A program made the translations under genes and the position numbers. From positions 4,695,001 to 4,759,000 of the forward strand of contig NZ_CP163443.1 of NCBI RefSeq assembly GCF_041053055.1: a DNA stretch of 64,000 nucleotides. Reading direction: 5' to 3'. Shown piece by piece: positions 15,492 through 61,212 of this stretch. The notes below the pieces were generated by a model, which was not told where the DNA came from, made no database searches, and saw only the letters and a list, made by a program, of their open reading frames with translations. Origin of the DNA: Streptomyces sp. R41. Its GTDB lineage: Bacteria > Actinomycetota > Actinomycetes > Streptomycetales > Streptomycetaceae. The stretch's first letter is position 1; the number at the start of each line of letters is the position of its first letter.

Positions 15492-15508
15492 TCTGACGCT
15501 CCGTCAGA
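15492..15508. promoter_or_regulatory. Regulon operator site 1 (TCTGACG-CTC-CGTCAGA)
   Basis: A perfect 7-bp inverted repeat with 3-nt spacer, midway between the starts of the divergent genes at 15455 and 15537. Same motif as the sites near 37440, 39277, 42281, 49434 and 61204. TetR-type operator by symmetry and size. Confidence 0.75.
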
Positions 15509-15536
15509 CAATGCGCCAGAGCCGGGGAGGCTTGTG

Positions 15537-16322
15537 ATGTCACAGCTCGCGGGCAGGACCGTCGTCGTGTCGGGGGTCGGGGCCGGTCTCGGCCATCAGG
15601 TCGCGGCGGCCGTGGTGCGCGACGGGGGCAACGCGGTGCTCGGGGCGCGCACGGAGGCGAACCTCGCCAAGTCGGCGGCCGAACTCGATCCGGATGGCGC
15701 GCACACGGCCTACCGGGCGACGGACATCACGGACGAGGGGCAGTGCGAGGCACTGGCCGCACTCGCGACCGAGCGGTTCGGGCGGATCGACGCCGTCGTC
15801 CATGTCGCCGCCTGGGACAGCTACTTCGGCGGCCTGGAGGACGCCGACTTCGCCACCTGGCAGTCGGTCATCGACGTGAACCTGCTCGGCACCCTGCGGA
15901 TGACCCGCGCCTGTCTGCCCGCGCTCAAGTCGCGCGGCGGCTCGGTCGTCATCATCGGCACACAGTCGTCGGTGGCCGCGCCGAGCCAGGTGCGGCAAGC
16001 GGCGTACGCGGCGTCGAAGGGTGCCCTGACGAGCGCGATGTACTCCCTGGCGAGGGAGCTCGGCCCGCATCGGATACGGGTCAACACCGTGCTGCCGGGG
16101 TGGATGTGGGGCCCGCCCGTCGAGGCGTATGTCCAGTTCACGGCGCACACCGAGGGCCTGCCGGAGGCGGACGTACTGGCCCGGCTCACCGAGCGGATGG
16201 CCCTGCCCGAGCTGGCCACGGACGGGGATGTGGCGGACGCCGCGGTGTTCCTGGCGTCCGACCGGGCGCGCGCGATCACGGGGCAGTCGCTGCTCGTGAA
16301 CGCCGGCGAACTCATGCGGTAG
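15537..16322 (+). CDS. SDR family oxidoreductase
   Basis: 261 aa short-chain dehydrogenase. Nucleotide loop SGVGAGLG at residues 12-19, catalytic Ser144, Tyr157 and Lys161 (YAASK), and the closing GQSLLVNAGE motif in place of DGG. Preceded by GGGGAGG. The GTG at 15534 directly before the ATG is an equally possible start. The regulon palindrome at 15492 covers its promoter, so the substrate is probably an alcohol or ketone of the regulated pathway; NAD versus NADP is not decidable here. Confidence 0.9.
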   Translation: MSQLAGRTVVVSGVGAGLGHQVAAAVVRDGGNAVLGARTEANLAKSAAELDPDGAHTAYRATDITDEGQCEALAALATERFGRIDAVVHVAAWDSYFGGLEDADFATWQSVIDVNLLGTLRMTRACLPALKSRGGSVVIIGTQSSVAAPSQVRQAAYAASKGALTSAMYSLARELGPHRIRVNTVLPGWMWGPPVEAYVQFTAHTEGLPEADVLARLTERMALPELATDGDVADAAVFLASDRARAITGQSLLVNAGELMR

Positions 16323-16575
16323 GTACGGCCGTCGCGGCTCCCTTCCCAGCCGCACGGGACCCGCATCCCGTACGTCCGTCGTCTCTGTCGTCCTGCCGAC
16401 CGCCCTGCCGACCGTTGCCGGTCGTCCTGGCCGTCGTCGTGTCGATGTCCTGCTGACGAAGTGCCCGCTCATGGTGTGTTCCACGTCACGAGCACGACAA
16501 CAGGCCTACGGGTAAAGTAGAGGCAAAATCGTTCTGCTTTCTGATCTGTGTTCATATCTGTGACCGCGAGAGGTC

Positions 16576-16605
16576 TTGACCGGCTGGTCGAACCAGCGGT
16601 TCAAT
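16576..16605 (+). promoter_or_regulatory. Candidate promoter with internal palindrome, symporter gene
   Basis: TTGACC at 16576 and TTCAAT at 16600 are 18 nt apart. The spacer holds GCTGGT-CGA-ACCAGC (16583-16597), a perfect 6-bp inverted repeat, which could be an operator. Otherwise the 386-nt gap upstream of the symporter shows nothing I can name. Confidence 0.4.
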
Positions 16606-16708
16606 CCCCGAAGTCCCCGCTCCCGCACGGGGGCGCCGCCCATGTGCGTACTGGCGAAGTGCCGTCCGGTATCTGCAGGTTCACAAGGCGGACCCCTGGA
16701 GGGGGCAC

Positions 16709-18277: not shown

Positions 18278-18307
18278 GCGGCTGCCTTTCGGCCGCGGAC
18301 CGGTGGG

Positions 18308-33087: not shown

Positions 33088-34542
33088 TCACCCAGGCCAA
33101 ACGATCGCCTGCACCTCGCTGTACGCGTGCAGCGCGTACGAGCCCACGTCCCTCCCCACCCCGCTCTTCTTGAAGCCGCCGAAGGGGGCCTCCATGTTGC
33201 GGCCGACGGTGTTCACGCCCACCCCGCCGGCGCGGAGGCGACGGGCGACGCGGAAGGCGCGGGCGACGTCGCCGGACCAGACGTAGTCGATCAGGCCGTA
33301 GTCGCTGTCGTTCGCGAGGGCGACGGCCTCCTCCTCGTCCCCGAAGGGGACGACCACGACGACCGGGCCGAAGATCTCCTCGCGGACCACCCGCATGTCG
33401 GGGGTGCAGTCGGCGAGGAGGGTGGGGGCGACGTAGAAGCCGCGTTCGAGGGCGGGGCGCCCGCCACCCGTGACGACCCGTGCCCCTTCCTTCCGCCCCA
33501 GCTCGACATACGACTCGACGCGGTCCCGGTGGGCGGAGGAGATGACGGGCCCCACCACCGTCCCCTGCTCCCGCGGGTCGCCCACCTTCAAGTACCCGGC
33601 GTAAGCGGCCAGTTGCTCCACCAGGCGGTCATGCACGCCCCGTTGCACCAGCACCCGGGTCGGCGCCGTACAGATCTGCCCGCTGTAGAACGAGAACGTC
33701 GTGCCGATCCCCGACACCGCCGACTCCAGATCGGCGTCGTCGAAGACGACCGCCGCGCCCTTGCCGCCCAGTTCCATCAGCTGCCGTTTCATCCCACGGC
33801 CGCACACCTCGGCGATCCGCTGCCCGACGGCCGTGGATCCGGTGAAGCTCACCATGTCCACGTCGGCGCAGTCCACCGCGGCCTCGCCCACCTCCGGGCG
33901 CGAGCCGCTCACCACGTTGACGACCCCCGGCGGCGCGCCCGCCGCCTCCAGCGCCTCCGCCATGCGGTACACGGACAGCGGGTCCTGCGGGGCCGGCTTC
34001 ACCACCACCGTGTTGCCCATCGCCAGCGCGGGGGCGATCTTGCCGGCCGGGTTCGCCCAGGGATTGTTGTACGAGGTGATGCAGGTGACGACGCCGACGG
34101 GCTGGCGTACGGCCAGCGCGCCCATCACGGCCGCCTTGCCGAAAGGGCCGGCCTCGTTGATCTGCGGCGGCAGCGGCTGCTCTACGGGCTCGACCTTCGC
34201 GTAGCGCCGGAAGCGGGCCACCCCGACGCCCACCTGCATTCCGCGAGCCGTCCCCGTCGTCGCGCCGCTCTCCGCCTGGGCGAGGTCGGCGTACGGGACG
34301 AAGTTGCGCTGGATGATGTCCGCCGCCCGGCCGAGGACGGCGGCGCGCTCGTCGGCGGGCGTGCGCGACCACGTCTCGAAGGCCTCGCGGGCCGCGGCCG
34401 CCGCCGCGTGCACCTGCTCCCGCGAGGCCTCCGGCGCCCGCCCGACGACGCCCTCGGTCGCCGGGTCGATCACCTCGTAGAACCCGTTCTCGGGCGCCAC
34501 CCACGACCCGCCGATGAACAACCACTGCTCGTCACCGCTCAC
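33088..34542 (-). CDS. Aldehyde dehydrogenase
   Basis: 484 aa. NAD site (VVVKPAPQDP, SFTGSTAVG), catalytic Glu in MELGGKGAAVV and catalytic Cys in SGQICTAPTRV. GTG 34542 overlaps the upstream amidohydrolase stop as GTGA, so translation is coupled. Third gene of an LLM oxidoreductase, amidohydrolase, aldehyde dehydrogenase operon whose promoter has the regulon palindrome. It probably oxidises an aldehyde intermediate to the acid. Confidence 0.93.
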   Translation of the reverse strand: MSGDEQWLFIGGSWVAPENGFYEVIDPATEGVVGRAPEASREQVHAAAAAAREAFETWSRTPADERAAVLGRAADIIQRNFVPYADLAQAESGATTGTARGMQVGVGVARFRRYAKVEPVEQPLPPQINEAGPFGKAAVMGALAVRQPVGVVTCITSYNNPWANPAGKIAPALAMGNTVVVKPAPQDPLSVYRMAEALEAAGAPPGVVNVVSGSRPEVGEAAVDCADVDMVSFTGSTAVGQRIAEVCGRGMKRQLMELGGKGAAVVFDDADLESAVSGIGTTFSFYSGQICTAPTRVLVQRGVHDRLVEQLAAYAGYLKVGDPREQGTVVGPVISSAHRDRVESYVELGRKEGARVVTGGGRPALERGFYVAPTLLADCTPDMRVVREEIFGPVVVVVPFGDEEEAVALANDSDYGLIDYVWSGDVARAFRVARRLRAGGVGVNTVGRNMEAPFGGFKKSGVGRDVGSYALHAYSEVQAIVWPG

Positions 34543-36269
34543 TTGGTGCTCACCGTCCGCGTGTCCCGCCCGGAGCGCAGCACCTTCCCGGGCACCGCCC
34601 CCGTCACCACATCCCGCCGTAGCGCCTCGACCCCGTTGACCCACACGGCGCTCACCCCGATCGCCTTCGAGTCGAGGCGCGGACTGTCTCCCGGCAGGTC
34701 GTGCACCAGGGTGGCCTTCCCGGCGTCGATCCGTTCCGGGTCGAAGAGCACGAGGTCCGCATGCCACCCCACCTCGATCCGTCCGCGCTCGCGCAGCCCG
34801 AACAGCCGCGCCGGATCATCCGTCAGCATCTGCACGGCCCGCTCCAGCGTCACCAGCTTGCGCCCGCGCAGGCAGTCGCCGATGAAGCGGGTGGTGTACG
34901 GGGCTCCGCACATGCGGTCCAGATGGGCGCCCGCGTCGGAGCCGCCGAGCATGACGTCCTGGTGCTGCCAGGTCTCGGCGCGCAGGGCCCAGGAGTCGGG
35001 GTCGTTGTCGGTGGGCATGGGCCAAAGGACCGTACGCAGGTCGTCGCTCGCGCAGATGTCGACCAGGCACTCGAACGGTTCCTGGCCGCGCTCGGCGGCG
35101 ATGTCGTTCACGACCCGCCCGGTCAGCCCCTCGTTCGCCGCGCTGTAGGTGTCCCCGATGACGTACCGCCCGAAGTTGGCCAGGCGCCGGAAGACGCCCG
35201 CCTCCTTGGAGTCCGCGCGCCGCAGCATCTCGGCGCGTACATCCGGATCACGCAGCCGAGCGATCCGCTCGGGCACGGGCAGCCCCAGGATCGGCCCCCA
35301 GCCGGGGATCAGGTTCAGCGCGCAGAAGGTGCCCAGCGACATGTTCATCGGCGTGAGGATCGGCATGGTGAGCGCGACGATGCGGCCGCCGGCCTTGCGG
35401 GCGCGCTCGCTCGCCTCCAGCTGGCGGGGGACGCGCTCGGGGACGGCGGCGTCGATCGTCAGGACGTTCCAGTTGAGCGGGCGGCCGGCCGCCGTGCTCA
35501 TCTCCACGAACAGGTCGATCTCGGCGTCGCTGAACTGGTCGAGGCAGCCGGCCACGATCGCCTCGATCTGGGTGCCCTCGTGCTCCCCCACGGCCTTCGA
35601 CAGGGCCAGCAGCTCGGCGGGCTTCGCGTGCCGGGAGGCGACCGGCTTGCCGTCGCCGTCGGAGTGCGTGGAGGACTGGGTGGTGGACAGGCCCCAGGCC
35701 CCGGCGTCCATCGCCTGGTGGAAGAGGGCGAGCATCTGCGACAACTGTTCCTCGGTGGGCTGCCCGCCCACCGCGTCCGGGCCCATCACATACCGGCGCA
35801 GCGCGCAGTGCCCCACCATGAAGCCCGCGTTGACGGCGATCCGCCCCTCCAGGGCGTCCAGGTACTCCCCGAAGGTGTGCCAGTTCCAGGGCGCGCCCTC
35901 CTCCAGGGCGACCAGGGACATGCCCTCGACCTTGGACATCATGCGGCGCGTGTAGTCGGCGTCCTCGGGCCGCGCGGGGTTGAGCGGGGCGAGGGTGAAG
36001 CCGCAGTTGCCGCCCGCGACCGTGGTGACCCCGTGGTTCAGGGACGGGGTCGCGTACGGGTCCCAGAAGAGCTGGGCGTCGTAGTGCGTGTGCGGGTCGA
36101 CGAAGCCGGGGGCGAGGACGAGCCCGGCCGCGTCCTCGGTCGTACGGGACGACTCGGTGACCGTACCGATCACGGCGATACGACCGTCCCGTATCCCCAC
36201 GTCGGCGGTGTACGCGGGCGCGCCCGTCCCGTCCACGACGGTCGCGCCCTTGATCAGGTGGTCGAGCAT
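34539..36269 (-). CDS. N-acyl-D-amino-acid deacylase-like amidohydrolase
   Basis: 576 aa, amidohydrolase superfamily with two-part beta sandwich and metal sites: PGFVDPHTHYDAQLFWDP, GGNCGFTLAP and the late GGSDAGAHLDRMC. Such enzymes hydrolyse N-acyl D-amino acids or dihydropyrimidine-like rings; in catabolic clusters related proteins open lactams and lactones. ATG 36269 lies 15 nt after the LLM stop. Middle gene of the operon that starts at 37402. The substrate is not known. Confidence 0.88.
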   Translation of the reverse strand: MLDHLIKGATVVDGTGAPAYTADVGIRDGRIAVIGTVTESSRTTEDAAGLVLAPGFVDPHTHYDAQLFWDPYATPSLNHGVTTVAGGNCGFTLAPLNPARPEDADYTRRMMSKVEGMSLVALEEGAPWNWHTFGEYLDALEGRIAVNAGFMVGHCALRRYVMGPDAVGGQPTEEQLSQMLALFHQAMDAGAWGLSTTQSSTHSDGDGKPVASRHAKPAELLALSKAVGEHEGTQIEAIVAGCLDQFSDAEIDLFVEMSTAAGRPLNWNVLTIDAAVPERVPRQLEASERARKAGGRIVALTMPILTPMNMSLGTFCALNLIPGWGPILGLPVPERIARLRDPDVRAEMLRRADSKEAGVFRRLANFGRYVIGDTYSAANEGLTGRVVNDIAAERGQEPFECLVDICASDDLRTVLWPMPTDNDPDSWALRAETWQHQDVMLGGSDAGAHLDRMCGAPYTTRFIGDCLRGRKLVTLERAVQMLTDDPARLFGLRERGRIEVGWHADLVLFDPERIDAGKATLVHDLPGDSPRLDSKAIGVSAVWVNGVEALRRDVVTGAVPGKVLRSGRDTRTVSTK

Positions 36270-36283: not shown

Positions 36284-37402
36284 CTAAGCGGCCTGGCGGA
36301 ACCGGGTCGTCCGATGCACCGGATCCGTGTCGATCTTCGGAATCACGTGCTCGCCGATCAGCTTGATCGTCTGCAGCGTGTACTCGGGCGGGACCCCGAC
36401 CGGCAGGCCGAAGGAGAGCTGGTCGGCGCCCGCCTGCTCCCAGCGCTTGCACTGGGTGAGCACCTCGTCCGGATCGCCGCAGATCAACAGCTCTTCCTCG
36501 ATGAGGAGTTCGACGAACTCCTCGTTGTACTCGGGGAGCGTCTCGGGCCAGACGGGGAAGCCCTCGGGGCGCGGGAAGGTGTCGTGGTAGCGGAAGACGA
36601 GGGAGGGCAGATAGTGCAGCCCGCCGCCGACCGCGATCCGGATGGCCTCCTCGTGCGTCGGCGCGCAGATCGCGGTCGTCGTCACCATCACGTTGTCGTT
36701 GACGAAGTCTCCGATCGGCTCGGCGTTCACGACCGCCGTCTTGTACTGCTCGAGGACCCACTCCATGTCGGAGACCTTCTGCACGCTGAAGCCGAGCACC
36801 CCGAGGCCCTTGCGGGCGGCCATGGCGTACGAGGGCGGCGACCCGGCGGCGTACCACATGGCGGGGTGCGACTTGCCGTACGGCTTGGGCAGCACCTTGC
36901 GCGGCGGGAGCTGCCAGTGCTTGCCCTTGAACCCGACGTACTCCTCCTGGAGCCACATCTTCGGGAACTCGGCGATGGTCTCTTCCCAGATTTCCTTGGT
37001 GTAGTTCATGTCGGTGATGCCGGGGAGGAAGCCGAGGATCTCGTGCGAGCCGGCGCCGCGGCCGCTGCCGAACTCGAAGCGGTTCTCGGAGAGATGGTCG
37101 AGCATGGCGACCTTCTCGGCGACCTTCACCGGGTGGTTGACCTGGGCGAGCGGGTTGAAGATCCCGGAGCCGAGGTGGATGCGGTCGGTCGCGTGCGCCA
37201 GATAGCCGAGGTAGACGTCGTTGGCCGAGAGGTGCGAGTACTCCTCCAGGAAGTGGTGCTCCGACGCCCAGGCGTACTTGAAGCCGGACTTGTCCGCCTG
37301 GATGACGTACTCGGTCTCCTCCATCAGCGCCTTGTGCTCCGCGAGCGGATCGGTCTCGGCCCGCTTGCCCACGTATCCCTGTACAAAGAGCCCGAATTCC
37401 AA
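36284..37402 (-). CDS. LLM-class (luciferase-like) F420- or flavin-dependent oxidoreductase
   Basis: 372 aa bacterial-luciferase-fold barrel. Early strand MEFGLFVQGYVG, then FKYAWASEHHFLEEYS, VAEKVAMLDHLSENRFEFG and GSGRGAGSHE are typical of the larger LLM proteins, including alkanal monooxygenase-like forms. It starts at TTG 37402; a stop 9 nt upstream in frame and no nearby alternative fix the start. First gene of a three-gene operon; regulon palindrome at 37432 lies 30 nt upstream. F420 use is inferred from context (fbiC, DDN proteins), not from a decisive motif. Confidence 0.85.
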   Translation of the reverse strand: MEFGLFVQGYVGKRAETDPLAEHKALMEETEYVIQADKSGFKYAWASEHHFLEEYSHLSANDVYLGYLAHATDRIHLGSGIFNPLAQVNHPVKVAEKVAMLDHLSENRFEFGSGRGAGSHEILGFLPGITDMNYTKEIWEETIAEFPKMWLQEEYVGFKGKHWQLPPRKVLPKPYGKSHPAMWYAAGSPPSYAMAARKGLGVLGFSVQKVSDMEWVLEQYKTAVVNAEPIGDFVNDNVMVTTTAICAPTHEEAIRIAVGGGLHYLPSLVFRYHDTFPRPEGFPVWPETLPEYNEEFVELLIEEELLICGDPDEVLTQCKRWEQAGADQLSFGLPVGVPPEYTLQTIKLIGEHVIPKIDTDPVHRTTRFRQAA

Positions 37403-39236: not shown

Positions 39237-39268
39237 GACGACCCCCTTGCCTGACCGACGGCCGCCCG

Positions 39269-39328
39269 ACTGACGAACCGTCAGATTGAATGGGACTCGC
39301 ACATAGTCGTCGCTGACGCCGCGTCAGA
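39269..39328. promoter_or_regulatory. Regulon operator sites 4 and 5
   Basis: ACTGACG-AAC-CGTCAGA (39269-39285) and GCTGACG-CCG-CGTCAGA (39312-39328). The 6-bp arms are perfect in both, centres 43 nt apart (four helical turns). They cover the promoter of the LLM-SDR operon. Confidence 0.75.
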
Positions 39329-41013: not shown

Positions 41014-42261
41014 TTAACCGGCGCCTCCCCGGGGCCACAGCCCGTCCTCCGTGAGCCCCAGCAGATCGATCGCGTTGCGCCGTACGATCCGGTCGACCAC
41101 GTCTGCGTCGAGGTGGCCCATCTGGGCCTCACCGACCTCCCTGGACTTGGGCCAGGTCGAGTCGGAGTGCGGGTAGTCGGTCTCGTAGAGGACGTTGGCG
41201 ACCCCGATGGCGTCGAGATTCTTCAGGCCGAAGGCGTCGTCGAAGAAGCAGCCGTAGACGTGCTCGGCGAAGAGCTCGGACGGCGGCCGGTGGACCTTGT
41301 CGGCGACGCCGCCCCAGCCGCGGTTCTCCTCCCACACCACGTCGGCGCGCTCAAGGATGTACGGGATCCACCCGATCTGCCCCTCCGCGTACATCACCTT
41401 CAGGTTCGAAAAGCGCTCGAACTTGCCGCTCATCAGCCAGTCGACCATCGAGAAGCAGCAGTTGGCGAAGGTGATGGTGGAGCCGACGGCGGGCGGGGCG
41501 TCGGCGGAGGTCGACGGCATGCGGCTGGACGAGCCGATGTGCATGGCGATGACCGTGCCGGTCTCGTCGCACGCGGCGAGGAAGGGGTCCCACTCGTCGG
41601 TGTGGATGGAGGGCAGCCCCAGATGGGGCGGAATCTCGGAGAAGGCCACCGCGCGTACGCCACGGGCGGCATTGCGCCGTACTTCCTCCGCCGCAAGTTC
41701 GGGGTCCCACAGGGGGATGAGCGTGAGCGGTATGAGCCGGCCGTGGGCCTGGGGCCCGCACCACTCCTCCACCATCCAGTCGTTGTAGGCCTTCACCCCG
41801 AGAAGGCCCAGCTCACGGTCCTTGGCCTCGGTGAACGTCTGACCGCAAAAGCGCGGAAAGGTGGGGAAGCAGAGGGCGGACTGGACATGGTTGACGTCCA
41901 TGTCGGCCAGACGCTGGGGGACGTCGTACGACCCCGGCCGCATCTGCTCGTACGTGATGACTTCGAGGCGTATCTCGTCCCTGTCGTATCCGACGGCGGT
42001 GTCGAGGCGGGTGAGCGGCCGGTGGAGGTCTTCGTACACCCACCAGTCGCCGATGGGGCCGTCGTCGCCCGGGCTGCCCATGACGGGTGCGAACTTCCCT
42101 CCCAGGAAGGTCATTTCCTTCAGGGGCGCGCGGACGATGCGGGGCCCGGTGTCCTGGTACTTCGCCGGCAGCCGGTCGCGCCAGACGTCGGGGGGCTCCA
42201 CCGTGTGGTCGTCCACCGAGATGATCTTCGGGAAGGTCCGGGATGTCTCCATGAGGTTCAC
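41014..42261 (-). CDS. Amidohydrolase_2 family metal-dependent hydrolase
   Basis: 415 aa. Early SVDDHTVEPPDVWRDRLP, central AMHIGSSSR and late YETDYPHSDSTWPKSRE carry the expected His and Asp ligands of the ACMSD-type amidohydrolase_2 family: decarboxylases or ring hydrolases. GTG 42261 is first; ATG 42252 is 3 codons in. Regulon site 6 lies 12 nt upstream, placing it with the catabolic set. The gene is divergent from afsR. Confidence 0.88.
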   Translation of the reverse strand: MNLMETSRTFPKIISVDDHTVEPPDVWRDRLPAKYQDTGPRIVRAPLKEMTFLGGKFAPVMGSPGDDGPIGDWWVYEDLHRPLTRLDTAVGYDRDEIRLEVITYEQMRPGSYDVPQRLADMDVNHVQSALCFPTFPRFCGQTFTEAKDRELGLLGVKAYNDWMVEEWCGPQAHGRLIPLTLIPLWDPELAAEEVRRNAARGVRAVAFSEIPPHLGLPSIHTDEWDPFLAACDETGTVIAMHIGSSSRMPSTSADAPPAVGSTITFANCCFSMVDWLMSGKFERFSNLKVMYAEGQIGWIPYILERADVVWEENRGWGGVADKVHRPPSELFAEHVYGCFFDDAFGLKNLDAIGVANVLYETDYPHSDSTWPKSREVGEAQMGHLDADVVDRIVRRNAIDLLGLTEDGLWPRGGAG

Positions 42262-42272: not shown

Positions 42273-42289
42273 TCTGACGGTCCGTCAGC
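42273..42289. promoter_or_regulatory. Regulon operator site 6
   Basis: TCTGACG-GTC-CGTCAGC, perfect 6-bp arms and one outer mismatch, at 12-28 nt before the amidohydrolase start, in the region shared with afsR. Confidence 0.7.
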
Positions 42290-47792: not shown

Positions 47793-49394
47793 TCAGCGCC
47801 CCCGCAACTCCCCCTTGACCACCTTCCCGCTCGCATTCCGCGGCAGCTCCCCCACGAACTCCACCACCCGCGGCACCTTGTAATTCGCCATCTCGCGCCG
47901 CGACCAGGCGATGAGGTCGTCGGCGGTCAACACCGCCCCCGCCCGGCGGACCACGTACGCCTTGCCCACCTCCCCCAGCCGCCCGTCCGGAACGCCGATC
48001 ACCGCCACGTCGGCCACATCCGGGTGCAGGCCCAGCAGTTGCTCTATCTCCGCGGGGTACGCGTTGAAGCCGCCGACGATGAACATGTCCTTGATGCGGT
48101 CCGTGATGCGGAGGTTGCCGGCGTCGTCCAGGACGCCGACGTCGCCCGTGCGCAGCCAGCCGTCGGCGTCGAGGACGGCCGCCGTGGCCTCCGGGTCCTC
48201 GAAGTAGCCCTGCATGACGTTGAAGCCGCGGACCAGGACCTCACCGGGTGAGCCGGCCCCGAGGGGCGCCCCCGTCGCGTCCACCACCCGTACCTCCGTG
48301 TCCGGGATCGCCCGCCCGGAGGTCGAGGCGATCACCGGTGGCGCGTCTCCCCGGCGGCACATCGTGACGATGCCGCTCGCCTCGGAGAGGCCGTACGCCG
48401 TCAGCACCGTGTCCACGCCGAGTTCCGAACGCAGGCGTTCCACCAGGCGCAGCGGCACCACCGCCGCGCCCGTCACCACCAGGCGCAGGGCCGAGAGGTC
48501 GTGCGCGTCCCGGGAGGGGTGGTCCAACAGCGACTGGTGGAGGGTCGGCGGGCCCGGCAGGACGGAGATGCGTTCCGAGGCGACATTCGCCAGCACCGTG
48601 TCCACGTTGAACACCGGCTGCGGGATCATCGTCGCGCCGCGCATCAGGCAGGCCACGATGCCCGCCTTGTAGCCGAAGGTGTGGAAGAAGGGGTTCACGA
48701 TCAGGTAGCGGTCCCCCTCACGGAGGCCCGCGAGGTCGCTCCAGATCTCGTAGCCGCGGAGCGTCTGCGCGTGGGTGATCAGCGCGCCCTTCGGGCGGCC
48801 CGTGGTCCCGGACGTGAAGATGATGTCCGAGGGAGCAGAGCCTGAGAGGGTGTCCGCCCGTTGCCGTACGTCCGCCGCTCCCACGCCCTCCCCGTCCGCC
48901 AGGAAGTCCTTCCAGGTACGGAAGTCGGCGGGGGCGTCGTCCGAGAGCACCACCACCTGCTCCAGGTGCGGAAGGCCGGGCAGCGGGCCGGCGGAACCGG
49001 GACCCTCTCCGCACGCCCGCCGCAGCGACGCCACGTACGACGTCCCCAGGAAGGTTCCCGTCACGAACAGCAGTTTCGCGCGGCTGCGGGACAGGACGTA
49101 CGCCGCCTCCGTGCCTTTGAAGCGGGTATTGAGAGGGACCAGGACCGCTCCCGCCGACACCGCGCCGAGTGCGGAGACGATCCAGTCGAGGGTGTTCGGG
49201 GCCCAGATGGCGACCCGGTCGCCCCGTCGTACGCCGCTCGCCATACAGGCCGCCGCCGCGCGCTCCACGCGGGCGCCCAAATCGGCGTACGAGATGGGGG
49301 TACGGCCCTCGACGACCGCCTCGCGGTCCGCGAAGCGCGTCGCCGCCGAGCGCACCAGCCCCGGGATGCTGCCCCACTCCAGGTCCCCGCGCAT
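47793..49394 (-). CDS. Acyl-CoA synthetase, FadD3-like
   Basis: 533 aa AMP-forming ligase. P-loop FTSGTTGRPKGA, NPFFHTFGYKAGIVACL, adenylate motif YGLSEASG, GWLRTGDVGVLD and C-terminal lysine in PRNASGKVVKGEL. The NPFF(H)xFGYKAGI and TVLPGPPTxxQSLLDHP stretches match mycobacterial FadD3, which activates the steroid C/D-ring acid HIP; this homolog probably ligates CoA to an alicyclic or branched propionic-type acid. ATG 49394 has GGGGAGG; ATG 49409 would overlap that site. Divergent from the thiolase operon with regulon sites 7 and 8 between. Confidence 0.92.
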   Translation of the reverse strand: MRGDLEWGSIPGLVRSAATRFADREAVVEGRTPISYADLGARVERAAAACMASGVRRGDRVAIWAPNTLDWIVSALGAVSAGAVLVPLNTRFKGTEAAYVLSRSRAKLLFVTGTFLGTSYVASLRRACGEGPGSAGPLPGLPHLEQVVVLSDDAPADFRTWKDFLADGEGVGAADVRQRADTLSGSAPSDIIFTSGTTGRPKGALITHAQTLRGYEIWSDLAGLREGDRYLIVNPFFHTFGYKAGIVACLMRGATMIPQPVFNVDTVLANVASERISVLPGPPTLHQSLLDHPSRDAHDLSALRLVVTGAAVVPLRLVERLRSELGVDTVLTAYGLSEASGIVTMCRRGDAPPVIASTSGRAIPDTEVRVVDATGAPLGAGSPGEVLVRGFNVMQGYFEDPEATAAVLDADGWLRTGDVGVLDDAGNLRITDRIKDMFIVGGFNAYPAEIEQLLGLHPDVADVAVIGVPDGRLGEVGKAYVVRRAGAVLTADDLIAWSRREMANYKVPRVVEFVGELPRNASGKVVKGELRGR

Positions 49395-49425
49395 CGCACG
49401 CCTCCCCATGACCGACGAACCACTA

Positions 49426-49469
49426 GCTGACTGACCGTCAGATTAGCTGTAGCCTGACAGCCTGTCAGC
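49426..49469. promoter_or_regulatory. Regulon operator sites 7 and 8
   Basis: GCTGAC-TGACC-GTCAGA (49426-49442) and CCTGAC-AGCCT-GTCAGC (49453-49469), centres 27 nt apart, in the divergent promoter of the FadD3-like gene and thiolase operon. The 5-bp arms are perfect in both. Confidence 0.7.
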
Positions 49470-49497: not shown

Positions 49498-50646
49498 ATG
49501 GCGGGAATCAAGGACGCCACCGCCGTCGTCGGGATCGGGCAGACCCCCTTCGCCAAGCAACTCCCCGAATCCGAGAAGACCTTGGCCTGCCGTGCCATCC
49601 TCGCCGCCCTCGACGACGCCGGCATCGCGCCCGCCGAAGTCGACGCGCTCGCCTCCTACACCATGGAGGAGACCGACGAGGTGGAGGTGGCCAAGGCCGT
49701 CGGACTCGGTGACCTCAGCTTCTTCAGCAAGGTGGGATACGGAGGGGGCGGTTCCTGTGCCACCGTCGCGCATCTCTCCGCCGCCATCGCCGGCGGACAG
49801 GCGACGGTGGGGGTCGCCTGGCGGTCGCGGAAGAGGGGGTCAGGACCCCGACCGTGGAAGAACACCAGCGTCCAACTTCCCACCCCCGCCCAGTGGACCC
49901 GCCCCTTCGGGCTCCTCCGCCCGGCCGACGAGATCGGCATGCTGGCCCGCCGGTACATGCACGAGTACGGCGCCACCCGCGATCACCTCTTCAATGTCGC
50001 GCTCGCCTGCCGCAACCGGGCCAATCAGAATCCCGCCGCGATCATGTACGAGCGCCCGCTCACCCGGGAGATGTACATGACCTCCCGCTGGATCAGCGAA
50101 CCCCTCTGCCTCTTCGACAACTGCCTTGAGACGGACGGAGCGTTGGCATGCGTCGTCGTGTCGGCGGAACGGGCGCGGGACTGCCGCCGGCGGCCCGTGT
50201 ACGTCCACTCCGCCGCCCAGGGGCTGCCCGCCCAGCACCACGGCATGGTCAATTACTGGAACGACGACCCGCTCACCGGGCCGGCCTGGGCGGCCGCCCG
50301 ACACCTGTGGAAACACGCCGACTTCACGCCGGAGGACGTGGATGTCGCGCAGATCTACGACGCCTTCACGCCACTGATACCCCTGTCCCTGGAGGGATAC
50401 GGCTTCTGCGGGAGGGGCGAGGGCGCGGCCTTCACCGAGGGCGGTGCGCTGGAGATCGGTGGGCGGCTGCCGCTCAACACCGGGGGCGGCGGGCTCAGCG
50501 AGGCGTACGTGCACGGCTTCAACCTCATCAACGAGGGTGTGAAGCAGTTGCGGGGCACGAGTACGGCGCAGGTGCCGGGGGCGGCCACCTGCCTGGTCAC
50601 GGCAGGGGAGGGGGTCCCGACCTCCGCCCTCCTGCTGAGGGCCTGA
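49498..50646 (+). CDS. Thiolase-fold lipid-transfer-like protein (Ltp/SCPx type)
   Basis: 382 aa. Thiolase fold with VVGIGQTPFAK, a central YGGGGSCATV segment, AQIYDAFTPLIPLSLEGYGFCGRGEG and NTGGGGLSEAYVHGFN. The nucleophile Cys of degradative thiolases is not at its usual place; in steroid-type Ltp enzymes the fold instead performs retro-aldol cleavage together with a DUF35 subunit. A DUF35 gene follows 25 nt later and an enoyl-CoA hydratase after that, one operon. GGGAGG precedes ATG 49498. Confidence 0.9.
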   Translation: MAGIKDATAVVGIGQTPFAKQLPESEKTLACRAILAALDDAGIAPAEVDALASYTMEETDEVEVAKAVGLGDLSFFSKVGYGGGGSCATVAHLSAAIAGGQATVGVAWRSRKRGSGPRPWKNTSVQLPTPAQWTRPFGLLRPADEIGMLARRYMHEYGATRDHLFNVALACRNRANQNPAAIMYERPLTREMYMTSRWISEPLCLFDNCLETDGALACVVVSAERARDCRRRPVYVHSAAQGLPAQHHGMVNYWNDDPLTGPAWAAARHLWKHADFTPEDVDVAQIYDAFTPLIPLSLEGYGFCGRGEGAAFTEGGALEIGGRLPLNTGGGGLSEAYVHGFNLINEGVKQLRGTSTAQVPGAATCLVTAGEGVPTSALLLRA

Positions 50647-50671: not shown

Positions 50672-51121
50672 ATGGAAACCGACATGAACGAGTCCCTGCT
50701 CTCCCCCGTCCTCGACGACGACGGCGGGCCCTTCTGGCAGTACGCCGCCCAGGGCGAGCTCCGGATCCAGGCATGCGCCGACTGCGGCGAACTCCGCTTT
50801 CCGCCCCGGCCGTGCTGCCCGCACTGCCACTCCTTCGCGAGCGAGTGGCGGAAGATGAGCGGGAAGGGGCGTGTGTGGTCGTACGTCATCCCGCATCCGC
50901 CGCTTCTGCCCGCCTACGCGGAGCAGGCCCCGTACAACGCGATCGTGGTGGAACTGGCGGAGGCTCCGCGGATACGGCTCGTGGGGAATCTGGTGAGCGG
51001 GCCCGAGGCGCCGCTCAACTCCGTTCCCCCGGAGCGGATACGGATCGGGGCGCGGGTGCAGGTGGTCTTCACGGAGGTGAACGGCATGTCCGTGCCGCGC
51101 TGGGTTCTGGAGCGACCGTGA
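50672..51121 (+). CDS. DUF35 OB-fold/zinc-ribbon protein
   Basis: 149 aa. Zinc ribbon CADC-x9-12-CPHC (Cys pairs near residues 35-53) then an OB-fold (GRVWSYVIPHPP, PYNAIVVELAE, VQVVFTEVNG). DUF35 proteins are obligate partners of Ltp-type thiolase-fold enzymes, often channelling or hydrating acyl-CoA. Overlaps the next gene as GTGA. Confidence 0.92.
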   Translation: METDMNESLLSPVLDDDGGPFWQYAAQGELRIQACADCGELRFPPRPCCPHCHSFASEWRKMSGKGRVWSYVIPHPPLLPAYAEQAPYNAIVVELAEAPRIRLVGNLVSGPEAPLNSVPPERIRIGARVQVVFTEVNGMSVPRWVLERP

Positions 51122-51903
51122 GCGGCGGCGGTGGTCACCTGAGCGTCAGCGCCGACAAGGACACCGGGGTCGCCGTCCTCACCCTCGACCGGCCCGGGAA
51201 GCTCAACGCCATCGACCTCGATACGGCCGCTGAACTCGCCGCCGCCTGGAGGGAGTTCCGGTTCGACGACTCGGTACGGGCCGTCGTGATCACGGGATCG
51301 GGTACGCGGGCCTTCTGCACGGGGATCGACCGGGACGTGGTCGTGCCGCAACCCAACTCGCCCTACATGGTGGACGATCCGCTCGTCGCGATCGGGCCGA
51401 AGGCGAACGACCTCTGGAAGCCGGTGATCGCGGCCGTGAACGGGATCGCGTGCGGGGGCGCCTTCTATCTGCTCGGGGAGGCCGAGTTCATCGTGGCGGA
51501 CGAGGAGGCGACGTTCTTCGATCCGCACACGACGTACGGGATGGTCAGCGCGTACGAGTCGATCTACATGGCGCAGCGGATGCCGTTCGGGGAGGTGGCG
51601 CGGATGGCGTTGATGGGGACCGCCGAGCGGATCTCCGCGCGGCGGGCGTACGAGATGGGGCTGGTGTCCGAAGTCACCGCCCCTGGTGGGGCGTTGGCGG
51701 CGGCCGTCGACTGTGCGGCCGTCATCGCCTCGTATCCGGCCGAGGCCGTGCAGGGGACCGTGCGGGCGCTGTGGCTGGCCAAGGAGGCGACCCGTGCGCA
51801 GGCGCTCGCGCACGCGCCGCAGCTCGTCTCGATGGGCAACCTTTCGGGGGAGCGCCAGGCGGGGCTCTTCATGGCCCGGCGGCCCGGCTTTCGGCTGCGC
51901 TAG
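51118..51903 (+). CDS. Enoyl-CoA hydratase/isomerase family protein
   Basis: 261 aa crotonase fold. LTLDRPGKLNAIDLDT, the oxyanion segment FCTGIDRDVV and VNGIACGGAFYLLGEAEFIVADEEATF. Usual second Glu position is replaced by a GMVSAYES segment, so hydratase versus isomerase or hydrolase is open. GTG 51118 overlaps the DUF35 stop. Last gene of the thiolase operon. Confidence 0.92.
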   Translation: MSGGGGHLSVSADKDTGVAVLTLDRPGKLNAIDLDTAAELAAAWREFRFDDSVRAVVITGSGTRAFCTGIDRDVVVPQPNSPYMVDDPLVAIGPKANDLWKPVIAAVNGIACGGAFYLLGEAEFIVADEEATFFDPHTTYGMVSAYESIYMAQRMPFGEVARMALMGTAERISARRAYEMGLVSEVTAPGGALAAAVDCAAVIASYPAEAVQGTVRALWLAKEATRAQALAHAPQLVSMGNLSGERQAGLFMARRPGFRLR

Positions 51904-55700: not shown

Positions 55701-55922
55701 GGTACATCGAATGCCCGTCGCTTACGTCCGGATCTGGAAACGGCTCCCCACAACCCAACGTCTGATCCACCGGCGACGGGCGGATGTACCGGCACGGCCC
55801 CGACCCCCCACCGACCGCAGGCGCCCCATCGGCATCCACTCGGCATCCACTCGGCATCCACCCCGCACCCCATTTGCAGTCGGCCGAATCGCGCTCCGAT
55901 CACCCCTCGGTAAGCTGACGGC

Positions 55923-56570
55923 ATGACAGGACAAGTGCGTACCGTCGACGGCCGCGTGGCCGGACGGCGAGGGCAGGCGACCCGGCAGAAGCTGCTCGAC
56001 TGCCTCAGCGAGATGCTCAGCTCCTCGCCCTACCGGGACGTCAAAGTCATTGATGTCGCCCGGAAGGCGGGCACTTCACCCGCGACCTTCTACCAGTACT
56101 TCCCGGACGTCGAAGGCGCCGTCCTCGAGATCGCCGAGCAAATGGCCGCGGAGGGCGCGGGGTTGACCCAGCTGCTCGAAGGGCGTTCCTGGGTCGGCAA
56201 GGCCGGCTGGCAGACCGCACAGGAACTCGTCGACGGCTTTTTGGAGTTCTGGCGCAAGAACGACGCGATCCTCAGGGTCGTCGATCTGGGCGCCGCCGAG
56301 GGCGACAAACGGTTCTACAAGATCCGTATGAAGATCCTGAACTCCGTGAACAACTCCCTTACGGACACGGTCGCCGACCTCCAGTCCAAGGGCAAGGTCG
56401 ACAAGGACGTGAACCCGGCGGCGATGGCCGGTTCCCTTGTCGCCATGCTCGCGGCGGTGGCCTCGCACCAGAAGGGTTTCCAGACGTGGGGCGTCAAGCA
56501 GGCTGAACTCAAGCCGAATCTGGCGCTGTTGGTGCACCTCGGCGTGACCGGGAAGAAGCCGACGAAGTAG
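55923..56570 (+). CDS. TetR family regulator, candidate controller of the catabolic regulon
   Basis: 215 aa. HTH in residues about 20-65 (RQKLLDCLSEMLSSSPYRDV, then DVARKAGTSPATFYQYF), all-helical ligand domain with TVADLQSKGKVDKDVNPAAMAGSLVAML. ATG 55923; no strong ribosome site. CTGAC-GGCAT-GACAG at 55915-55929, a degenerate regulon site (one arm mismatch), overlaps its start codon, consistent with weak autoregulation. It lies between the two halves of the regulon. The other TetR (29856) has its own palindrome, so this one is the better candidate; unproven. Confidence 0.88.
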   Translation: MTGQVRTVDGRVAGRRGQATRQKLLDCLSEMLSSSPYRDVKVIDVARKAGTSPATFYQYFPDVEGAVLEIAEQMAAEGAGLTQLLEGRSWVGKAGWQTAQELVDGFLEFWRKNDAILRVVDLGAAEGDKRFYKIRMKILNSVNNSLTDTVADLQSKGKVDKDVNPAAMAGSLVAMLAAVASHQKGFQTWGVKQAELKPNLALLVHLGVTGKKPTK

Positions 56571-58940: not shown

Positions 58941-59039
58941 GCCGTCAACGCCGCCCGCCCGGGCGCGACTGCGACCGTCAACACCGCCCGCCCGGGCGCG
59001 GCTACGGCCGTCAACACCGCCCGCCCGGGCGCGGCTACG
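58941..59039. repeat. 33-bp tandem repeat, three units
   Basis: Units start at 58941, 58974 and 59007, each (A/G)CCGTCAACACCGCCCGCCC followed by GGGCGCGGCTACG, with few changes. It sits directly after the stop of the gene at 59044, filling the gap to the GNAT start. Each unit holds a CCGCCCGGGCG palindrome. Confidence 0.8.
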
Positions 59040-59043
59040 GCCG

Positions 59044-59916
59044 TCAGCGCCGCACGATCCGGAACAGCCTGATCTCGCGGTCGACCCGCGCCTGATACGT
59101 GGCGTAGGGCGGCCAGAACGCCAGCACCGCCTTCCACGCCGCGTCCCGTTCCTCGCCCTCGAGAAGATGAGCGGTTACGGCGATGTCCTCGCCCTTCCAG
59201 CTGATCTCGGCGTCGGGATGGGCCAGGAGATTGGCGGTCCAGGCAGGGTGGTCCGTACGCCCGAAGTTGGAGCCGATGAGGATCCAGCTTCCCGGGCCAC
59301 CATCAGGTGAGGCGCCCTCGGGCATGCAGGCCAGCGGCGTCCGCCGTTCCAGCCCGCTCTTCGCACCGCGCGCGGTGAGGATGACGCCCGGCAGCATCTG
59401 CGCGCTGAGCAGCACCTTGCCGCGGGTGAGCCGGTGCACGGCGCGGTCGAGGGCGGGCACGAGGTGCGGAGCGACCCGGGCGAAGGCCCGGGTCGAGGAC
59501 ACCTTCTGCACCAGCCGGACCCCGGGAATCCGCCTCGGCACCACACCCGGCCCCTTCCCCGGCCCCACACCTGCCCCCTTGCCCGATCCCCTACCTGGTT
59601 CTCTGTCCGACCCCGCACCTGATTCCTGGCCCGGACCCACACCCAGCCCCGCACCTGATTCCTCGCCCGGACCGACCCCCAGCCCCGCACCTGATTCCTC
59701 GCCCGGACCCACACCCAGCCCCGCACCTGATTCCTCGCCCGGACCGACCCCCAGCCCCGCACCTGATTCCTCGCCCGGACCCACACCCAGCCCCTCGCCC
59801 GAATCCATACCCGATCCCGCACCCAGCCCCTCGCCCGAATCCATACCCGATCCCGCACCCGGCCGCTCGCCCGATCCCACAGCCGGTTCCCCGCCCGGCT
59901 CCTCGTCCGCGGCCAT
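59044..59916 (-). CDS. Nitroreductase-fold deazaflavin-dependent protein with repetitive N-terminus
   Basis: 290 aa. The last 150 residues are a DDN-type split barrel (VILTARGAKSGLERRTPLAC, WILIGSNFGRTDHPAWTANLLAHPDAEI), likely F420-dependent. The first 130 residues consist of a 12-residue repeat (GAGLGVGPGEES) in about six copies, encoded by 36-nt units. ATG 59916 shares one base with the acyl-CoA dehydrogenase stop (TGATG). Second gene of that operon, under regulon site 9. The repeat is unusual for this family and may vary in number. Confidence 0.88.
   Translation of the reverse strand: MAADEEPGGEPAVGSGERPGAGSGMDSGEGLGAGSGMDSGEGLGVGPGEESGAGLGVGPGEESGAGLGVGPGEESGAGLGVGPGEESGAGLGVGPGQESGAGSDREPGRGSGKGAGVGPGKGPGVVPRRIPGVRLVQKVSSTRAFARVAPHLVPALDRAVHRLTRGKVLLSAQMLPGVILTARGAKSGLERRTPLACMPEGASPDGGPGSWILIGSNFGRTDHPAWTANLLAHPDAEISWKGEDIAVTAHLLEGEERDAAWKAVLAFWPPYATYQARVDREIRLFRIVRR
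59604..59870. repeat. 36-nt coding tandem repeat (minisatellite)
   Basis: Unit CCCAGCCCCGCACCTGATTC plus CTCGCCCGGACC(C/G)AC, about six copies. Variants ending ACCCACA and ACCGACC alternate, giving a 72-nt higher-order period. Encodes the 12-residue repeats. Confidence 0.85.
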
Positions 59917-61103
59917 CACACCGCCACCTCCCCGCCGTCGAAGAGCCGCGCGGCGTCGGCGGCGTACCCCCGCAGCCGGTGCACCGGCCCGAAGAGCAGT
60001 TCGTCGCCAGAGGCGCGCTTGAAGTAGAGATGGGCCTCGTGCTCCCAGGTGAAGCCGATGCCGCCGTGCAGCTGGATGCCCTCGGAGGCGGCGGTGCGCA
60101 GCGCCTCCAGCGCCTGGGCGAGCGCGAGCGCGCCCACCCGCTCTCCGCCCGCGCCGGCCGCCCACGCGGCGTAGTACGCCGCCGACCGCGCCGCCTGCAC
60201 CCCCACGTACACATCCGCGAGCCGGTGTTTCACCGCCTGGAAGGACCCGATCGCCCGCCCGAACTGCTCGCGCTGGCGCACATACTCGACGGTCCGCTCC
60301 AGCGCGCGGTCGGCGGCGCCCACGGCTTCCGTGGCGAGCACGGCGGCGGCCGTGTCCCCGACGGCGGCGAGCGCGGTGGGCACGTCGGAGCCGTCGTCGC
60401 CGAGCAACTCGGCGTCCACGTCCCGCAGTTCGATCCGGGCCTGCGGCCGCGTCTCGTCCAAGGACGTCTGTCGCACTCGTACGAGCCCCTGGGCGCCCTC
60501 TCGCAGGAGGAACAGCAGCGTCCGCGACCGAGCGAACCCCCCGGTGTGCGCGGCCACCACAAGCAGCCCCGCGCTGTGTCCGTCGAGCACCTGTGCCGCC
60601 TGCCCAAAGAGGCGCCAGGCACCCTCGGCCCGTCGCGCCTGTACGCCCCCGGCGCGCCCGTCGCCCGCCCAGTCCCCGCGGTTGTCGCCGACCAGCCCGA
60701 GCGCCGTCGCGAGCCCCGCGCCCGGTACGGCGAGGGCTGCGGTGAGCTCGCCGGAGGCGAGGCGTGGCAGCAGTTCGGTGCGCTGGGCCCGGGTGCCGAG
60801 GGCCAGGATCAGCGGTGCGGCGAGGACGGCGGTCGCGAGCAGCGGCGAGGGGGCGAGGGCGCGACCCGACTCCTCGCAGGCGAGGGCGAGTTCGGTCACC
60901 GAGCAACCAACACCGCCGTACGCCTCGGGAAGGGCGAGCCCGGGCAGGCCGAGCTGCTGCGCGAGCGCCTCCCACAGCGCCGGGTCGTACCCGGCGGGGG
61001 TCCGCACGGCGGCCCGCAGCTCCTCCGGGCCGCAGCGCTTGACCAGCAGCTCCCGCAGAGTGCGGCGGATCTCGTCCTGCTCGGCGGTGAAACGGGCGTC
61101 CAT
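59916..61103 (-). CDS. Acyl-CoA dehydrogenase
   Basis: 395 aa. N-terminal helical part, GLPGLALPEAYGGVGCSVTELAL, C-terminal VEYVRQREQFGRAIGSFQAVKHRLAD and GIQLHGGIGFTWEHEAHLYFKR. It belongs to the FadE type of steroid and branched acid clusters, often working as heterodimers of two subunits; no second one is adjacent. ATG 61103. Divergent from the second thiolase gene with regulon sites 9 and 10 between. Confidence 0.92.
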   Translation of the reverse strand: MDARFTAEQDEIRRTLRELLVKRCGPEELRAAVRTPAGYDPALWEALAQQLGLPGLALPEAYGGVGCSVTELALACEESGRALAPSPLLATAVLAAPLILALGTRAQRTELLPRLASGELTAALAVPGAGLATALGLVGDNRGDWAGDGRAGGVQARRAEGAWRLFGQAAQVLDGHSAGLLVVAAHTGGFARSRTLLFLLREGAQGLVRVRQTSLDETRPQARIELRDVDAELLGDDGSDVPTALAAVGDTAAAVLATEAVGAADRALERTVEYVRQREQFGRAIGSFQAVKHRLADVYVGVQAARSAAYYAAWAAGAGGERVGALALAQALEALRTAASEGIQLHGGIGFTWEHEAHLYFKRASGDELLFGPVHRLRGYAADAARLFDGGEVAV

Positions 61104-61121
61104 GGGTGGGCTCCTCCCGGA

Positions 61122-61212
61122 TCTGACGGGCCGTCATGTTAGGGCGAGGGGTGGCAGATGCACAGGGGTGCGACCACCTCCCGGCGGAGGACTTATCTGA
61201 TGTACCGTCAGA
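61122..61212. promoter_or_regulatory. Regulon operator sites 9 and 10
   Basis: TCTGACG-GGC-CGTCATG (61122-61138) and TCTGATG-TAC-CGTCAGA (61196-61212), each with one core mismatch. Site 9 lies 19 nt upstream of the dehydrogenase start, site 10 only 3 nt before the thiolase ATG. Confidence 0.65.

Follow-up and report, generated by a model that had tools for sequence, protein, structure and literature searches.

The analysed DNA is a stretch of 64,000 nt of Streptomyces sp. R41 (GCF_041053055.1, NZ_CP163443.1, positions 4,695,001 to 4,759,000 of the forward strand), in the following called the window, and all coordinates given here are window-based unless a genome position in Mb is stated. It carries genes for short-chain dehydrogenases (SDRs), LLM oxidoreductases, amidohydrolases, a FadD3-family acyl-CoA ligase, an Ltp-type thiolase/aldolase and an acyl-CoA dehydrogenase (ACAD), with copies of the palindrome CTGACN5GTCAG at or near gene starts (Table 1). 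The symmetrised consensus of the palindrome is ATCTGACGGNCCGTCAGAT. Two TetR-type regulator genes are present: one at 29856 (P0001) and one at 55923 (TetR38), the latter one gene away from a Ser/Thr kinase-PQQ (afsK-like) gene at 52182.

Table 1. Operator-like sites and associated genes in the window, with the match or profile on which each assignment is based.
Feature	Position	Strand or location	Basis
279-aa protein, site-flanked	14616..15455	-	no Pfam match; 85-89% identical in 5 other clusters
Operator-like site	15493..15507	divergent promoter, 279-aa gene (-) / SDR (+)	exact match
Short-chain dehydrogenase (SDR)	15534..16322	+	PF13561
Aldehyde dehydrogenase, third gene behind LLM promoter	33088..34542	-	PF00171
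Amidohydrolase family 3 protein	34539..36269	-	PF07969
LLM oxidoreductase, first gene behind 37433/37496	36284..37402	-	PF00296; 90-94% identical in 5 clusters
Operator-like site upstream of LLM gene	37433..37447	.	exact; conserved in other clusters
Second LLM-promoter site, overlaps SDR stop codon	37496..37510	.	exact core
SDR, upstream of LLM gene	37507..38283	-	PF13561
F420-dependent-type LLM oxidoreductase	38295..39302	-	TIGR03619 240 bits, cut-off 166.9; start could be 39236
Operator-like site upstream of second LLM gene	39270..39284	.	exact
Operator-like site, 43 bp from 39270	39313..39327	.	exact
Amidohydrolase family 2 protein	41014..42261	-	PF04909; 89-91% identical in 5 clusters
Operator-like site between divergent amidohydrolase and afsR-like genes, 12 bp upstream of the former	42274..42288	.	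exact
FadD3-family acyl-CoA ligase	47793..49409	-	NF005801 804 bits, cut-off 657
Operator-like site, FadD3/Ltp divergent promoter	49427..49441	.	exact
Second FadD3/Ltp operator-like site	49454..49468	.	exact
Ltp-type thiolase/aldolase	49498..50646	+	top hit among solved structures: 6ok1 lipid-transfer protein, E 2.7e-99
ChsH2-type DUF35 protein	50672..51121	+	PF01796, PF12172
Enoyl-CoA hydratase family protein	51118..51903	+	PF00378
One-mismatch site over TetR38 start codon, possible autoregulatory site	55915..55929	.	
TetR38, TetR-family regulator with PF19352 C-terminal domain, proposed regulator	55923..56570	+	
F420H2-dependent quinone reductase family protein, following ACAD	59044..59568	-	PF04075
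ACAD, IpdE2/PimD-like	59916..61103	-	PF00441; NF050027 214 bits, below cut-off 450
Operator-like site, ACAD side	61123..61137	.	one mismatch
Operator-like site, thiolase side, 4 bp from start codon	61197..61211	.	one mismatch
Thiolase-domain protein	61216..62412	+	PF22691

Eight exact copies of the palindrome were found in the window, whereas dinucleotide shuffles of the window contain 0.12 on average and never more than 1. The whole genome contains 51 exact copies versus 3 for the reversed control, and 13 of these 51 lie within 72,194 bp (binomial p = 3e-17). This site-rich stretch extends 24 kb beyond the window, where five further exact sites (window-equivalent positions 66297, 69513, 69537, 73883, and 87672) add four promoter regions to the six in the window, so that the 72-kb cluster comprises ten, besides distal loci. 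With up to two mismatches allowed, there was no enrichment in the window (32 found, 40 expected). Further one-mismatch matches in the window are located at 9016, 11061, and 42441; the last one lies just upstream of afsR and was rejected as a regulon site, having no counterpart at that place in the genomes G007, G009, G013, and G066.

A preliminary description of the window had put forward a coherent regulon of catabolic genes, spread over 46 kb and apparently unnamed, with this palindrome at six promoters. The recurrence of the palindrome is real and the six regions are confirmed, while the span was underestimated: the regulon covers no less than 72 kb and, in addition, distal loci. The positions given there were right, though mostly one base too low. 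The site at 37496, listed there as degenerate, has all ten core bases exact; the one at 55915, likewise listed as degenerate, indeed has one mismatch and overlaps the TetR start codon; and the pair at 61122 and 61196 exists at 61123 and 61197, albeit with one mismatch each. Two tests of the regulon had been named beforehand, chance frequency in the genome and conservation upstream of orthologues: genome-wide the motif is far above chance, and it is conserved upstream of orthologous genes, as detailed below. Both results support a coherent catabolic regulon.

An exact site was found upstream of Ltp in 21/22 and of FadD3 in 19/19 scorable loci. With up to one mismatch allowed, ACAD has a site upstream in 51/52 and thiolase-2 in 48/53. 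No site was present upstream of afsK (0/62), DUF35 (0/37), ECH (0/36), or the F420 reductase (0/19) in the scorable loci. For this scoring, loci with sufficient gene similarity, an alignment from near the start and at least 120 nt of upstream sequence were used (n = 5-72 of 73). In the FadD3/Ltp promoters (n = 20), motif columns are 97% conserved compared to 67% elsewhere. As to the other promoters, the site at 15493 adjoins the orthologous 279-aa gene in G007, G009, G013, G066, and G026, and a site occurs at the place of 37496 in 5/5 other clusters (three exact, two with one core mismatch). The site at 42274 accompanies the amidohydrolase gene in 6/6 clusters and faces afsR in four of them. 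A counterpart of the pair at 39270/39313 stands immediately in front of the orthologous LLM gene in one of five other clusters (G007); for the remaining four, the lists contain no site in that position. The Streptomyces ipd-like operon (2.918 Mb in R41) was rejected as a target, since no site with up to one mismatch was found in the 3,780 bases scanned.

TetR38 has an N-terminal TetR_N helix-turn-helix (PF00440, 26.7 bits, cut-off 24), and its all-helical structural model (pLDDT 88) matches TetR-family structures. A strong TetR38 match was found in 43 of 246 genomes, which have a median of 11 sites compared to 0 in the 198 genomes without; five genomes with weak matches (G140, G255, G275, G294, G346) belong to neither group. 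With Streptomyces and family f13 left out, the relation to site number holds for 16 versus 198 genomes (p = 8e-9), and a family-stratified permutation gave p = 1.5e-4 for the association. G263 (68% complete) has 10 sites and no TetR38 match. In families f12 and f14, the TetR38 gene follows an ipdF-like SDR gene in the same direction, and a site lies between this SDR and echA20-ipdA-like genes in all seven loci fetched, which come from the eight genomes there with a strong TetR38 match. In family f18, a one-mismatch site precedes the predicted start of TetR38 by no more than 40 bp in 6/6 loci, and a second site lies between TetR38 and the preceding gene, or at the end of that gene, in 5/6 (four exact, one with one mismatch); at such stringency, a stretch of 160 nt has a chance of roughly 0.004 of containing a site. 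Only three of six LLM/ALDH or thiolase promoters tested in f18 have a site. The TetR protein at 55923, one of the two candidates named in the preliminary description, is thus strongly supported as reader of the motif at the sequence level, by its presence tracking motif number across the class together with this co-location. In our preferred reading, to which we assign a probability of roughly 0.86, the palindrome would be the operator of TetR38, a putative self-limiting, ligand-released repressor of a steroid-like acyl-CoA regulon.

It is improbable that the regulon is real but read in Streptomyces by another regulator encoded elsewhere, of the TetR or another family, with TetR38 a syntenic passenger there. 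Such a reading would account for the Streptomyces TetR38 promoter, which is without a clean upstream site: in 72 Streptomyces-type loci, the 160 nt in front of TetR38 contain a site with up to one mismatch just once. It would also fit four Streptomyces genomes in which TetR38 is kept (66-89% identical) and the fetched region is without FadD3, Ltp, ACAD, thiolase-2, LLM, and amidohydrolase genes, so that TetR38 may have another job there. Furthermore, genes that look TetR-like by eye lie near some distal sites, e.g. at L020 and L003. Against it stand the adjacency of TetR38 and site in all 7 f12/f14 and all 6 f18 loci and the TetR38 presence profile, which tracks the sites. The TSxATFYQYF segment is conserved in TetR38 across lineages, which also speaks against another regulator, but it fails to discriminate because relatives in G141 and G150 share it with 0 exact sites in these genomes.

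That the repeats are hairpins, terminator-like or other repeated DNA instead of operators is very improbable. In six same-genus clusters, 60 exact sites comprise 30 divergent, 25 codirectional, 5 coding, and 0 convergent ones; 55/60 are therefore intergenic, compared to 83% coding for random positions. When one site was taken from each of 30 genomes, 28 were no further than 400 bp from a predicted start and 25 at promoters orthologous to the site-bearing ones of R41. Some predicted starts are uncertain because genes were called by a codon-usage script, which missed an SDR in L201 and L210 that was recovered by tblastn. In the R41 genome, 25 of 38 distal sites were classified, with 8 coding and 2 convergent. 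In favour of repeated DNA is a related palindrome, CTGACGN3CGTCAG, which occurs 109-218 times per genome in five f13 genomes. As 15 of 218 sites examined in one of these (G201) were convergent (6), coding (7) or codirectional (2) and none divergent, f13 was left out of the statistic relied on. Its site abundance inflated the raw correlation, part of the raw co-occurrence of TetR38 and motif is spurious for this reason, and f13 was dropped as support.

P0001, the second candidate of the preliminary description, lies within the cluster, but the probability that it reads the motif is practically negligible, and it was excluded as general regulator because genomes with an intact site array lack it: full-length matches with at least 68% identity occur in 14 of 121 genus genomes including R41, with no match in G007, G009, G013, and G026 and G066 not among the matches, and no BLAST homologue was found in the clusters of these five genomes, all of which have the array.

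Among known systems, KstR2 of mycobacteria and rhodococci is released by a CoA thioester of its pathway and has fadD3 in its regulon, while the operator of KstR is a different palindrome. KstR2 is described as a TetR repressor of CoA-thioester catabolic genes including ipdAB, ipdC, ipdF, and echA20 (PMC5380842), and in f12/f14 actinobacteria TetR38 adjoins an ipdF/echA20/ipdA-type gene set. However, the KstR2 motif reported in PMC3068626, AnCAAGnnCTTGnT, is unrelated to CTGACN5GTCAG, and no chain labelled KstR2 is among 32 PDB-sequence matches of the TetR38 profile, some of which are generically named. FadD3 and Ltp of R41 carry the site and the ipd-like operon is without it. KstR is reported to govern a large lipid degradation regulon (PMC1995591); a similarly large TetR-controlled catabolic regulon is proposed here for TetR38. 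A survey describes 55 of 57 Streptomyces genomes as being without the steroid pathway (PMC4810484). The solved fold nearest to the TetR38 model is EthR (TM 0.75-0.80 by query length, 17-18% identity), with FadR entries lower in the list; the motif reported for EthR is larger and more complex (PMC4482099), and TetR38 differs by its PF19352 C-terminal domain. Literature searches on the motif letters and on the afsK/TetR/acyl-CoA dehydrogenase context turned up no relevant regulon paper among the hits listed; the kind of system is already known (cf. KstR2), the regulon itself is not described in the literature searched.

Judged by gene position near afsK, TetR38 is apparently the orthologue of SCO4421 of S. 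coelicolor, and SAV3818 is presumably another. The closeness of SCO4421, a TetR gene, to afsK matches the arrangement of TetR38 in R41; its expression is reported to be lower in a whiA mutant, its promoter to be active in spores, and its deletion to be without phenotype, and the part of this source available to us gives no regulon or operator (PMC3878966). For this TetR, apparently an orphan whose deletion had no phenotype, the places to look would be sterol- or terpenoid-like compounds as carbon sources for growth, and the activity of the FadD3/Ltp promoter.

Under the TetR38 operator model, TetR38 dimers would bind the palindrome at or near gene starts in the ten promoter regions of the 72-kb cluster, as well as in a few distal operons. 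We infer dimeric binding from co-occurrence and co-location, the 15-bp palindrome being of typical size for the family. Bound TetR38 would keep these operons off, rather than activate them, and would also restrain its own gene; in Streptomyces, the start-codon site is the sole candidate for this, making autoregulation there a possible, predicted feature. A CoA thioester or related pathway intermediate in the C-terminal domain would then release TetR38. The operons are predicted to provide CoA ligation, dehydrogenation, hydration, and Ltp/DUF35-type cleavage together with LLM, F420-type, and amidohydrolase steps, i.e. probably a steroid-like acyl-CoA catabolism. For a large catabolic block around afsR/afsK that many Streptomyces carry, this yields a defined operator together with a candidate regulator and the list of genes concerned. 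The data also suggest that the last steroid-ring genes are controlled by a repressor different from KstR2 in some actinobacteria.

A tentative and rather doubtful extension is that TetR38 might be an intermediate-sensing switch of several actinobacterial families, which in Frankiales-type lineages takes the place of KstR2 at the steroid ring C/D genes. Streptomyces would have adopted it for another steroid-like substrate, and it would link this catabolism to the neighbouring afsK/afsR control of development and antibiotics. If so, TetR38 and its strongly conserved promoter in pathway-less strains would point to a second, developmental role (cf. the whiA dependence of SCO4421). CTGACnnnATG is present in 89 of 90 unique Streptomyces-type TetR38 promoters, most of the promoter being likewise conserved.

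In the 10.46-Mb single-contig genome, of which the window covers bases 4695001–4759000, the palindrome CTGACN5GTCAG occurs 51 times versus 3 copies of the reversed motif used as control, and eight exact copies lie in the window versus 0.12 expected from shuffled sequence. Thus, the motif is above chance genome-wide. Enrichment in the window was not found when up to two mismatches were allowed and therefore near-perfect copies carry the signal. Thirteen of the 51 copies fall within one region (p = 3e-17; see table), so the cluster extends 24 kb beyond the window. The clustering proposed in the preliminary description was thereby confirmed, but its extent of 46 kb was too small, as the cluster runs past the window and distal copies exist. 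Beyond the window, sites adjoin a DUF35 gene, accompanied by one for a 150-aa protein and by a divergent FMO-like gene; a gene for an acyl-CoA synthetase with succinyl-CoA-ligase-like domains; a flavin reductase gene; and an amidohydrolase gene followed by two acyl-CoA dehydrogenase genes opposite a CoA ligase gene.

Coordinates of sites, genes and regions considered in this analysis
Position	Reference	Feature	Remark
61123	window	one-mismatch site	1 mismatch
61197	window	one-mismatch site	1 mismatch
29856	window	other TetR candidate	
42466–45417	window	afsR-like gene (SARP-NB-ARC-TPR)	inside catabolic cluster
45634–45807	window	afsS-like 57-aa gene	inside catabolic cluster
52182–54503	window	afsK-like gene (kinase-PQQ)	inside catabolic cluster
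55868–55922	window	TetR38 promoter	−55 to start codon
55923–56570	window	TetR38 gene	
4710493–4782686	genome	region with 13 of 51 motif copies	
1919578	genome	strong distal copy	precedes DUF35-lipid-transfer-protein pair
5214675	genome	strong distal copy	precedes acyl-CoA dehydrogenase
3334699	genome	strong distal copy	beside large acyl-CoA dehydrogenase
625253	genome	distal copy	near divergent crotonase and CoA ligase (named by eye only)
3339405	genome	distal copy	near LLM gene (named by eye only)
3323928	genome	distal copy	near alcohol dehydrogenase with MaoC-like gene (named by eye only)
1871440	genome (locus L021 5441)	distal copy	between isochorismatase-like and pyridoxamine-oxidase-like genes (read by eye)
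192, 35519	genome (loci L001, L002)	two copies sharing the flanks TCGATCTGACTATCTGTCAGAATC	near contig left end
about 665–749	locus L291 (genome 2918 kb)	promoter of ipd-like operon	divergent from SDR-like gene

The extended form TCTGACGN3CGTCAGA was present in 88 of 121 genus genomes, while the control gave one site in one genome. Five further clusters of the same genus were fetched, giving six genomes with that of the window, and many of the same promoters have sites in them. The 60 exact sites of the six genomes were divergent (30), codirectional (25) or coding (5) and never convergent, compared with 83% coding for random positions. Using the first listed site of each of 30 genomes, five of them those of the further clusters, 28 lay at most 400 bp from a predicted start, and for 25 the promoter has an orthologue with a site in the genome of the window. 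Around the TetR gene, 73 named loci were scored gene by gene where scorable, counting sites with at most one mismatch. The nearest named loci share the kinase–TetR order of the window and belong to Streptomyces, which was therefore taken as the genus. Upstream sites were found for FadD3 (19/19), Ltp (21/22), ACAD (51/52) and thiolase-2 (48/53), and none for afsK (0/62), DUF35 (0/37), ECH (0/36), F420 reductase (0/19) and AsnC (0/5). The KbpA-like gene had one in 16 of 62 loci, the four examples shown being the TetR start-codon site viewed from the opposite side. Alignment of homologous promoters revealed higher conservation of motif columns than of the rest for FadD3/Ltp (97% versus 67%; 20 promoters, p = 1.5e-7) and ACAD/thiolase-2 (74% versus 52%; 46 promoters, p = 6e-5). 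Hence, the motif is kept upstream of orthologues, as had been anticipated.

Two TetR proteins had been put forward as candidate regulators. The one at 29856 was ruled out by its rarity (full-length matches of at least 68% identity in only 14 of 121 genus genomes) and its absence from five clusters that have site arrays. The other, TetR38, contains a PF19352 domain, is presumably orthologous to SAV3818, and was retained as candidate because site number tracks its presence. Among 246 genomes of the class, 43 had strong matches (E < 1e-30), and five with weak matches were set aside. The median count of CTGACGN3CGTCAG was 11 in these 43 versus 0 in the 198 without TetR38, and at least five sites occurred in 32/43 versus 2/198. 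The association held when family f13 and Streptomyces were left out (16 versus 198 genomes, p = 8e-9) and upon permutation within families (p = 1.5e-4). In family f14, seven genomes with TetR38 have 6–14 sites each; five without it have 0, 0, 0, 1 and 10, the 10-site genome being 68% complete.

The strongest links of TetR38 to the motif came from other actinobacterial families. In seven f12/f14 loci, its gene lies behind an SDR gene in the same direction and opposite a set of four genes. The interval from SDR to hydratase contains a site with no more than one core mismatch in 7/7; SDR, hydratase and IpdA-like genes were found in all seven, the SDR of locus L210 only in part. For L196, the only one of these loci with family searches on the whole gene set, the SDR matched NF005893 and the hydratase NF005925, and two proteins matched chains A (E 3e-95) and B (E 3e-76) of a solved CoA-transferase, 6co6, which we take to be IpdAB; the fourth protein is FabK-like, as described for IpdC. 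In f18, a one-mismatch site precedes the predicted start of TetR38 by at most 40 bp in 6/6 loci (chance per 160-nt stretch about 0.004), a second site (4 exact, 1 with one mismatch) lies further upstream in 5/6, before the end of the preceding gene or just past it, and an LLM/ALDH or thiolase promoter carries a site in 3/6. The segment TSxATFYQYF, presumably the recognition helix, is identical in all 18 aligned relatives, including two from genomes without exact site (G141, G150).

Family f13 was discounted as support. Its five genomes (G132, G154, G171, G186, G201; loci L146–L160) contain 109–218 copies of CTGACGN3CGTCAG per 4.3–5.5 Mb and 0–1 control sites each. Of 218 sites in G201, 15 were examined: six convergent, seven coding, two codirectional and none in a divergent promoter. 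These copies look like a repeated palindrome, at 3′ ends or of another kind, rather than an operator.

In Streptomyces-type loci, TetR38 itself had an upstream site (at most one mismatch) in 1 of 72 scorable cases. CTGACnnnATG was found in 89 of 90 unique promoters. Per-base conservation of this promoter was mostly 90–100% with dips to 54% (90 unique sequences), more than one operator would explain. Since most of it is conserved besides CTGACnnnATG, autoregulation in Streptomyces is possible. From five few-site genomes of the genus, 28–37 kb around TetR38 were fetched. In four (G246, G266, G347, G356), FadD3, Ltp, ACAD, thiolase-2, LLM and amidohydrolase genes were absent from this region, TetR38, afsK-like and afsR-like genes were kept, and the sole common site-like sequence lay over the TetR38 start codon, remaining one-mismatch matches being mostly intragenic. 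The fifth (G087) lacked the same genes there and kept a flavin reductase gene with a one-mismatch site ahead of it.

Some sites are very near to starts, for example 12 bp ahead of amidohydrolase and, for thiolase-2, 4 bp ahead of the start codon; such closeness suits repression, which TetR38 would exert. The best of five TetR38 models (pLDDT 88; others 68–77) was closest to EthR (TM 0.75–0.80), with weaker likeness to FadR structures, some with acyl-CoA; a CoA thioester might release TetR38 from DNA. Judged from the FadD3-family ligase (family match above cut-off), the Ltp related to 6ok1 and the ChsH2-type DUF35 protein, the operon content is steroid-like. KstR2 controls comparable mycobacterial genes, but its motif, AnCAAGnnCTTGnT, differs from CTGACN5GTCAG (available part of PMC3068626). 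The motif was not found at the genome's own ipd-like operon. As, moreover, steroid pathways were reported to be missing from 55 of 57 Streptomyces genomes (available part of PMC4810484), an ordinary sterol is an unlikely substrate. The ipd-like operon promoter in L291 carries a different palindrome-like sequence, AACAAACGTTTGGTG, which suggests another regulator. Among the hits listed in searches of open-licence papers, none was found to describe this operator or regulon.

The names afsR, afsS and afsK for window genes are our assumption from domain order and position. The available part of PMC3878966 describes SCO4421 as a TetR close to afsK with lower expression in a whiA mutant, activity in spores and a deletion without phenotype. 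The apparent orthology of TetR38 to SCO4421 is based on the location of both genes near afsK.

Of the 38 out-of-cluster sites, 25 were classified: five as divergent, nine as codirectional, eight as coding, two as convergent and one as lying at an edge. Thus, a sizeable share of the distal copies probably lies outside promoters. The copy at 1871440 has counterparts at the orthologous position in two further genomes (L042, L043), and its target has no obvious connection to acyl-CoA catabolism. The copies at 192 and 35519 possibly represent duplicated terminal sequence.
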